From Desulfurococcales archaeon (GTDB taxonomy: Archaea; Thermoproteota; Thermoprotei_A; Sulfolobales; Ignisphaeraceae): a stretch of DNA of 5,154 bases. The position numbers and the translations under genes were made by a program. Location: positions 1 through 5,154 of the forward strand of contig JAPYWC010000050.1 in assembly GCA_028276605.1 (NCBI GenBank). Direction: 5' to 3'. Below are positions 2,336 through 3,763 of this stretch, in pieces; positions within the stretch are counted from its first letter, which is position 1, and each line of letters begins with the position of its first letter. The notes beneath the pieces are model-generated. The model was not told the DNA's origin. It searched no databases and was given only the letters and a program-made list of their open reading frames with translations.

Positions 2336-2390
2336 TCAGTGATGAAGGCTAGATAATCTGAGCTGTGATGATCGGTTTCTGGACTGAATC
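2336..2390 (+). ncRNA. Box C/D guide sRNA (all four boxes at consensus)
   Basis: Box C GTGATGA (2339-2345), 12-base guide (2346-2357), box D' CTGA (2358-2361), 3-base spacer, box C' GTGATGA (2365-2371), 12-base guide (2372-2383), box D CTGA (2384-2387). This is the ideal archaeal dual-guide layout for 2'-O-methylation by L7Ae, Nop5 and fibrillarin. The D' guide AGGCTAGATAAT predicts target AUUAUCUAGCCU, methylated at the U opposite A2353. The D guide TCGGTTTCTGGA predicts UCCAGAAACCGA, methylated at the G opposite C2379. Both targets partly resemble neighbouring parts of the 23S rRNA segment containing CCGAAACCGG and GAUCUAGCC (roughly E. coli 670-690), but each has mismatches to the sequence I remember, so the target is tentative. 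The RNA fills the spacer between translin-family and SPOUT genes and is followed by seven Ts, so it may be processed from their shared transcript or end there. Confidence 0.9.
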
Positions 2391-3339: not shown

Positions 3340-3395
3340 TAGATGATGACTCCGGCAGGAACGGATTCAGTGAAGAAATTTCCATGAACTGATGA
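3340..3395 (+). ncRNA. Box C/D guide sRNA; first guide complementary to 16S rRNA 5' end
   Basis: Box C ATGATGA (3343-3349) is perfect, then a 12-base guide (3350-3361), D'-like CGGA (3362-3365), 4-base spacer, C'-like GTGAAGA (3370-3376), a 12-base guide (3377-3388) and perfect box D CTGA (3389-3392). Within the first guide, TCCGGCAGGA (3351-3360) is fully complementary to UCCUGCCGGA, a near-universal archaeal 16S sequence close to the 5' end. The fifth base before D' (A3357) points to U20 in E. coli numbering by my alignment. The second guide AATTTCCATGAA predicts UUCAUGGAAAUU, which I cannot place. The D' and C' boxes each have one mismatch, common in real archaeal guides. It begins about 50 bases after the SPOUT gene stop; CTTATTT at 3309-3315 is a weak TATA candidate at the right distance. 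Confidence 0.75.
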
Positions 3396-3442: not shown

Positions 3443-3502
3443 ATGTCAGCCGGTTGATCTTCTATCATCTGCATCACATATGATCACCTCCCTCATCATC
3501 CA
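3443..3502 (-). ncRNA. Probable box C/D sRNA with guides to both ends of 16S rRNA
   Basis: Read on the minus strand: box C ATGATGA (3499-3493), 12-base guide GGGAGGTGATCA (3492-3481), a poor D'/C' centre (C' best read as ATGATAG, 3468-3462), 12-base guide AAGATCAACCGG (3461-3450), and perfect box D CTGA (3449-3446). The D guide is complementary over 10 bases, starting at the base next to box D, to CCGGUUGAUC at the archaeal 16S 5' end; the fifth base (A3454) points to U13 in E. coli numbering. The first guide is complementary over 10 bases to GAUCACCUCC, the 16S 3' end. Against this, D' is not recognisable (TATG or GTGA), the C to D distance is 43 bases rather than about 38, and GGAGGTGATC could instead be a Shine-Dalgarno site for a 36-codon minus-strand frame. 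Both 10-base matches fall exactly in the windows set by boxes C and D, which favours the guide RNA. Confidence 0.55.
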
Positions 3503-3540
3503 TTATAGTGCTTACCTTAGTAAAGTAATGCTGAATAAAG

Positions 3541-3548
3541 CTTTTAAA
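3541..3548 (+). promoter_or_regulatory. TATA box of tRNA-Tyr
   Basis: CTTTTAAA lies about 39 bases before the mature tRNA 5' end. With the usual archaeal spacing, transcription would start near 3571, leaving a 5' leader of about 13 bases for RNase P to remove. The stretch is AT-rich on both strands and might also serve the minus-strand guide RNA. Confidence 0.5.
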
Positions 3549-3583
3549 TTCAAGTACTAAATACTAATCAACTAGAGAGTAAT

Positions 3584-3673
3584 CCCGCCGTAGCTCAGCG
3601 GCAGAGCGCCCGGCTGTAGTGAGGGGGCGCGGATACCGGGTGGTCGGGGGTTCGAATCCCCCCGGCGGGACCA
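3584..3673 (+). tRNA. tRNA-Tyr (anticodon GUA) with a 15-base intron and encoded CCA
   Basis: The cloverleaf is complete: acceptor CCCGCCG (3584-3590) with CGGCGGG (3663-3669), D stem GCTC/GAGC (3593-3596, 3604-3607), anticodon stem CCCGG/CCGGG (3609-3613, 3636-3640), T stem GGGGG/CCCCC with TTCGAAT loop (3646-3662), discriminator A3670, then encoded CCA (3671-3673). Anticodon GTA is at 3616-3618. C1-G72 is the tyrosine identity pair of archaea. Seventeen bases instead of two separate the anticodon from the 3' stem strand, giving an intron at 3620-3634 in the canonical 37/38 position. Exons are 3584-3619 and 3635-3670. Minus-strand frames across this gene are antisense artefacts. Confidence 0.97.
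3620..3634 (+). other. tRNA-Tyr intron with bulge-helix-bulge splice motif
   Basis: CTGT of the anticodon loop (3614-3617) can pair with GCGG near the intron 3' end (3629-3632) as C-G, U-G, G-C, U-G, the central 4-bp helix. This leaves 3-base bulges AG|U (3618-3620) and AU|A (3633-3635), the form cut by the archaeal splicing endonuclease. The intron-side helix is very short (G3621-C3628), so the motif is of the relaxed type. Confidence 0.8.
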
Positions 3674-3704: not shown

Positions 3705-3763
3705 TGCTCAGTTCTCCGCCGTTTCTTCATCAGAACATCCGCCCCAATAGACCTCATCATGCA
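3705..3763 (-). ncRNA. Candidate box C/D guide sRNA, antisense side of tRNA-Tyr downstream region
   Basis: Read on the minus strand: perfect box C ATGATGA (3760-3754), 12-base guide GGTCTATTGGGG (3753-3742), D'-like CGGA (3741-3738), 4-base spacer, C' CTGATGA (3733-3727, first base off consensus), a 15-base interval (3726-3712), and perfect box D CTGA (3711-3708). The first guide predicts CCCCAAUAGACC, with the A opposite T3746 as site. The twelve bases next to box D predict UUCUCCGCCGUU. I cannot assign either target with confidence. The 15-base second interval is longer than the usual 12, so this is weaker than the plus-strand guides. A minus-strand frame with ATG starts runs through it into the tRNA, but its remaining translation is only tRNA antisense. 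CTTATAAG at 3797-3804 could act as its promoter. Confidence 0.5.

Follow-up and report, generated by a model that had tools for sequence, protein, structure and literature searches.

Can a single small RNA address the two ends of the same 16S rRNA, and would it modify both of them, or modify one and hold the other? The question is raised by a short minus-strand locus, here termed sA (3446..3499, box C to box D), in a stretch of 5,154 nucleotides from a Desulfurococcales-type archaeon, the whole of which is referred to below as the window. Over its full length the window is 94.7% identical to a MAG, Desulfurococcales archaeon RSNS17 (L001, genome G001). An earlier note on this DNA had proposed that the minus strand from 3499 to 3446 encodes a C/D box sRNA candidate whose two guides are complementary to the 3′ and 5′ ends of 16S rRNA, and that its poor D′ box might leave the 3′-end guide to hold rather than to methylate.

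The boxes of sA and the spacing between them can be read directly from the DNA, and the extent of the gene follows from these boxes, from the 12-nt guides and from a sequence profile. In the order of transcription on the minus strand, box C (ATGATGA, 3493..3499) is followed by the 12-nt D′ guide GGGAGGTGATCA (3492-3481), whose core GGAGGTGATC (3482..3491) is complementary to the 16S 3′ end GATCACCTCC, the anti-Shine-Dalgarno. Next comes a degenerate D′ region (3474..3480), in which TATG (3480-3477) occupies the spot 12 nt from box C and GTGA (3477-3474) lies 15 nt from it. Box C′ (ATGATAG, 3462..3468), a near match to RTGATGA, stands directly 5′ of the 12-nt D guide AAGATCAACCGG (3461-3450), the core of which, GATCAACCGG (3450..3459), is complementary to the 16S 5′ end CCGGTTGATC; box D (CTGA, 3446..3449) closes the element. 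Several features expected of an archaeal C/D box sRNA are thus present, namely a box C of the form RTGATGA, a box D CTGA, a C′ box and, between C′ and D, a 12-nt rRNA-complementary guide whose target is paired at position 5. Against Rfam, sA scores 17-19 bits with sR11, sR12 and sR7, which have gathering scores of 37-39, and no family lies above its cut-off; as these families describe single sRNAs, such sub-threshold scores do not exclude sA from the C/D class. The naked RNA is predicted to form a guide-to-guide hairpin at 37 °C (-11.2 kcal/mol) and no structure at 80 °C. Judging from sequence, sA is very likely a true C/D sRNA that carries a guide for each end of 16S, and the boxes and guides lie where the earlier note had placed them.

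Both complementarities are complete over the guide cores. On the 16S of relatives, GGAGGTGATC forms 10 of 10 pairs with GATCACCTCC at the 3′ end and GATCAACCGG forms 10 of 10 with CCGGTTGATC at the 5′ end, which bears out the proposed pairing with both termini and gives sA, on these 16S sequences, a pair of guides to far-apart sites in the same rRNA, as a long-range chaperone calls for. Position 5 from box D is an A and faces a U of 16S; this U, within CCGGU, we take to be E. coli U13, and the C of GGAUC opposite the 3′-end guide is presumably E. coli C1533. The 16S ends were examined at 30 loci, drawn from 72 genomes with a 16S match among 197 searched, and contain CCGGTTGATC in 29 cases (the search expression missed L011), GGATCACCT in all 30 and GATCACCTCC in 22. 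The 16S search returned no match in G001, and the complementarity of sA was read on the 16S of other relatives; three genomes that carry sA (G045, G014 and G069) have both target sites exact in their 16S genes. The two guides score 26.5 and 26, against a value of 25 that is reached by 5% of 300 random 12-mers on one 16S+23S set, and because each lies just above this 95% level the complementarity alone is suggestive only. A role for sA as a guard against mispairing of the 16S ends was considered and rejected, the mutual pairing energy of these ends being unexceptional: in four genomes with 469-473 other 16S windows apiece, 97-138 of these equal or better it when the 5′ end is considered, and 52-60 when the 3′ end is.

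It is the recurrence of the guide pair that decides the matter. The earlier note had recommended a search of related genomes for the same pair, and a pattern made of the two guides and the gap between them, with no boxes specified, matches in 5 of the 214 genomes of the order, the near-identical G001 included. In each of the five, RTGATGA lies one base 5′ of the guide core and CTGA directly 3′, so that boxes C and D are kept with the pair. Neither the pattern read backwards nor a swapped arrangement, with the 5′-end guide first and the 3′-end guide second, occurs in any of the 214 genomes. A profile trained on the window and the five pattern-match genomes finds a full-length match in 24 of the 214 at E ≤ 3.4e-7, five of which are training sequences, and some match at E ≤ 1 in 170, many of these weak or covering half the model only. 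The window and the 24 full-length matches constitute the 25 family rows discussed below. They were extracted with an expression that required box C, GGAGGTGA, AACC and box D and that lost none of the 24 matches; RTGATGA in all 25 rows was therefore demanded by the expression, yet at no cost in profile matches.

Within these rows, the 3′-end guide core pairs perfectly over 10 nt in 21 and has one inner mismatch in the other four. In 17 of the 25 (with one G-U in G053), the 5′-end guide forms an unbroken run of 8 pairs or more; in the remaining 8 the run is just 6-7 pairs long, which indicates that selection on this pairing is not absolute. The register of the D guide to box D is constant throughout, and an A that faces U occupies position 5 before box D in every row, AACC having been required for extraction. 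Among the 17 rows in which both guides fit (the window and 16 genomes), the 3′-end guide core has a mean pairwise identity of 0.98 and the 5′-end core one of 0.87 (0.97 over positions 3-10), against 0.34-0.48 in the middle and a near-random 0.26-0.29 in the flanks, the figures for guides and boxes being partly ascertained because profile matches and rows were selected on those very elements. The box-free search is accordingly the cleaner test of the pair, which is conserved far beyond chance.

All full-length carriers belong to one order. No full-length member of the family was found at E ≤ 0.001 in 15 further genomes of the class, and in a 300-genome sample of the phylum (E ≤ 5e-4) a full-length match with both guides occurs only in G001, G025, G014 and G003, all of the order. 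Most of the model, with the 5′-end guide only, is matched in two genomes of the phylum sample (G419 and G384) and, at weaker E-values, in seven of the order (G186, G130, G108, G174, G162, G050 and G214); such presence counts are lower bounds, as the strict filters applied in searches of more than 40 genomes lose weak matches.

Whether the 3′-end guide could direct methylation depends on the D′ box. In 16 of the 25 rows an NNGA motif (CGGA, CCGA, CAGA, CTGA and similar) stands exactly 12 nt from box C, and in these the guide could methylate its target. The motif is absent from that spot in nine rows, namely, the window, G001, G025, G045, G075, G087, G069, G003 and G053, and in all nine the 3′-end guide is intact. 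The spot reads TATG in the window and G001, TATA in G025, and TATT in G045 and G075, and in these five an NTGA follows 3-4 nt later. Under the N+5 rule for the methylated position, as set out in PMC7994747, a D′ box shifted in this way would move position 5 to the final base pair of the duplex or beyond it, which makes 3′-end methylation unlikely in these five. That the guide docks at the 3′ end and does not methylate is, for the window's own organism, an even call. The D′ box of the window is poor at the 12-nt spot, as the earlier note had maintained, and the suggestion that the 3′-end guide might hold rather than methylate would suit the window and the eight other rows that lack the motif better than the 16 that keep it. 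For the opposite terminus, the D guide is likely to direct methylation of the U at the 16S 5′ end.

Each guide also occurs without the other. As judged by eye, 37 loci in the order carry the 5′-end guide alone and 18 the 3′-end guide alone; among the latter, a few have no recognisable second guide and three have one mismatch. From the 40 loci read for lone guides, L104, L107 and L117 were dropped for having neither motif, and from a further 20, L152, L154 and L169 were dropped on the same ground and L153, L155, L156, L157 and L161 because they resembled coding sequence or an ordinary Shine-Dalgarno element. Both guides are present in G116 and G013, on two separate sRNAs, with the 5′-end guide in the D′ position and one mismatch in the 3′-end guide. 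Outside the class, the phylum sample of 300 contains the 3′-end guide in 8 genomes, 7 of them with NNGA at 12 nt, and the 5′-end guide in 2. These same-phylum sRNAs, recognised by ATCAACC..CTGA or by GGAGGTGATC (mostly before NNGA), share their guides and the D or D′ register with sA, but their second guide is another one or, at a few loci, unrecognisable, whereas sA has both. The pattern suggests that the 5′-end and 3′-end guides are real methylation-type guides, and since each is found elsewhere in the phylum with other partners, the pair in sA looks as if two older guides had been fused.

Facing sA tail to tail in the window is a second C/D box sRNA gene, sB (3343..3392, plus strand), with box C at 3343-3349, C′ at 3370-3376 and D at 3389-3392. 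Its first guide, CTCCGGCAGGAA (3350-3361), followed by a D′ box CGGA (3362-3365), matches nt 15-24 of a 16S string whose numbering begins 6 nt before CCGG; the second, AATTTCCATGAA (3377-3388), has a weaker match at about nt 53-61. The first target overlaps that of the sA D guide (nt 7-16) by two bases, so that the D guide of sA and the D′ guide of sB together cover string nt 7-24. We take this segment to be helix 1 and also the 5′ strand of the central pseudoknot, for which AAAGGAATTGG, the likely partner strand, occurs in 16S. The window shares this convergent arrangement with 9 of the 16 other genomes in which both sA guides fit; sB lies on a separate contig in three of the 16 (G093, G117 and G069) and has no match at E ≤ 1e-4 in the other four (G132, G105, G152 and G053), these results being obtained with a profile whose training set was the window and 8 of the 9 neighbours, themselves found beside sA. 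In G093 and G117, another convergent C/D candidate adjoins sA.

Around sA lie genes for a Translin-family protein, a putative RNA methyltransferase (PF02598), a tRNA-Tyr and an S-adenosylmethionine methyltransferase-like protein. The tRNA-Tyr (GTA; 3584-3673, plus strand) is 90 nt long and has extra bases 3′ of the anticodon, which are probably a short intron. Between it and sA (about 3500-3583), AAAGCTTTTAAA is TATA-like on both strands, and the sA-side part of this interval is almost identical in L001; the interval is a possible shared divergent promoter. Four C/D box sRNA candidates are found inside 1.5 kb of the window. In addition to sA and sB, a canonical one at 2339-2387 (plus strand; GTGATGA, CTGA, GTGATGA, CTGA) has a D guide that pairs with the 23S segment CCAGAAACCGG, and its top Rfam match, sR5, reaches 34.3 bits, below the gathering score of 40; the fourth, at 3708-3760 (minus strand), adjoins the tRNA-Tyr, has a D′ box CGGA and a D guide that matches best in 23S CTCCGCCGT.

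Could the same sequence be a Shine-Dalgarno element with a short minus-strand leader peptide rather than an sRNA? GGAGGTGATC would make a strong Shine-Dalgarno, and the frame that starts at the ATG in box C is open to box D in 14 of the 25 rows; in 11 of them, the window included, its stop codon is the TGA of box D itself. In the remaining three (G132, G105 and G152; loci L042, L043 and L048) it passes box D, so the sRNA may there form the beginning of a protein gene or lie within one. In seven relatives (L052, L054, L055, L057, L058, L059 and L060), moreover, the D guide reads GGATGCAACCG, whose ATG, by eye, opens a downstream frame MQP..., so that the 3′ part of the sRNA and a protein start may overlap; in the same relatives the 5′-end pairing is reduced to 6-7 contiguous pairs. 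The box-C frame, however, stops short of box D in 11 of the 25 rows and in 10 of the 17 with both guides fitting, the distance from box C to box D varies from 49 to 58 by steps that are not multiples of three, the ATG nearest 3′ of the Shine-Dalgarno-like element in the window is followed directly by TGA, and boxes C and D keep a fixed spacing from the guides. A leader peptide in place of an sRNA is therefore unlikely, indeed very improbable. That sA is a chance assembly of rRNA-like words would fit the modest score of either guide taken alone, and is scarcely credible for a whole RNA found in 24 of 214 genomes against 0 of 214 for the control patterns.

The remaining choice is between functions of a genuine sRNA. 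An ordinary double-guide sRNA, directing independent and successive methylations from an RNA shared through an accident of recombination, with no bridging or chaperone role, would also explain the sequence, as two methylations inherited together: the guides are modular and recur apart, even on separate sRNAs in G116 and G013, so that co-inheritance of the pair needs no bridging, and the NNGA motif is kept at 12 nt in most rows. We regard this account as evenly balanced, for the two guides have stayed joined in the window and 16 genomes despite near-random flanks, and the 3′-end guide stays intact in the nine rows, the window among them, that lack the motif. Another possibility is an RNA that methylates the 5′ end only and clamps or chaperones the pre-16S ends, keeping them together or unpaired until processing: the pair is recurrent, the 3′-end guide is kept where the D′ box is lost, position 5 then falling at the duplex edge or outside in the window and the rows most like it, and chaperone roles have been proposed for distant double guides (PMC4644070). 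This account is tentative and somewhat unlikely in our estimate, given that the 16 rows with the motif look competent for 3′-end methylation too and that the mutual complementarity of the 16S ends is not unusual. The description that we prefer, and hold to be probably correct, makes sA a true archaeal C/D box sRNA with a methylating D guide for the 5′ end and a 3′-end guide that, in the window, mainly docks.

Several known systems offer partial parallels. In a 2015 study (PMC4644070), archaeal sRNAs with distant rRNA targets were proposed as chaperones (Table 3: Neq sR15, sR17, Iho sR103 and others). Like sA, for which the same role is considered, they have C/D/C′/D′ anatomy and two 10-12-nt guides to far-apart targets in one rRNA. 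None of the 15 rows of that table joins two 16S ends, and sA differs from them in that its targets lie at the extreme ends, some 1,490 nt from each other, and in that its D′ box is degenerate in the window. The two methylation sites of sA may, taken singly, already be among the 719 predictions of that study. In eukaryotes, the U3 snoRNA pairs with helix 1 near the central pseudoknot and delays formation of the pseudoknot (PMC9196750); the two are alike as C/D RNAs with pairing to small-subunit helix 1, whereas sA, of some 55 nt, has methylation-type double guides and the 16S 3′ end as its second target, and is not classed as a U3. U3-like sRNAs are apparently absent in archaea (PMC3608112), and according to a 2021 review neither U3 nor snoRNPs with a part in rRNA folding or processing that does not depend on modification are known there (PMC8339473). 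No published sRNA joining both 16S ends was noticed in a literature search of listings and the opening lines of abstracts, mostly of papers outside subscription.

If expressed and assembled into an RNP, sA would act as follows. The D guide would pair with the first nucleotides of 16S, and fibrillarin would 2′-O-methylate the U of CCGGU; the D′ guide would pair with the last ten nucleotides (GAUCACCUCC) and, in much of the family, would lead to methylation of the C of GGAUC. In the window and its likest relatives, where the D′-like box is shifted by 3-4 nt, this guide would probably dock without methylating. Because the two guides match opposite ends, one sRNP could contact both pre-16S termini, in turn or together, during maturation, and the convergently encoded sB sRNP would cover the next 16S segment beside it. 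Simultaneous holding of both ends is plausible, though rather less likely than not.

On a bolder reading, which we find decidedly doubtful, sA and sB would together be an archaeal stand-in for U3: they would shield string nt 7-24 of 16S, with helix 1 and the pseudoknot's 5′ strand, and sA would at the same time grip the 3′ end, its guide there having become purely a docking site in the window and the relatives most like it; pseudoknot formation and end processing would wait for the sRNPs to depart. Among archaeal sRNAs that might aid rRNA processing or folding, sA is a concrete, testable candidate: an sRNA whose guides for both 16S ends recur together, one of them seemingly without methylation geometry in some members of the family.
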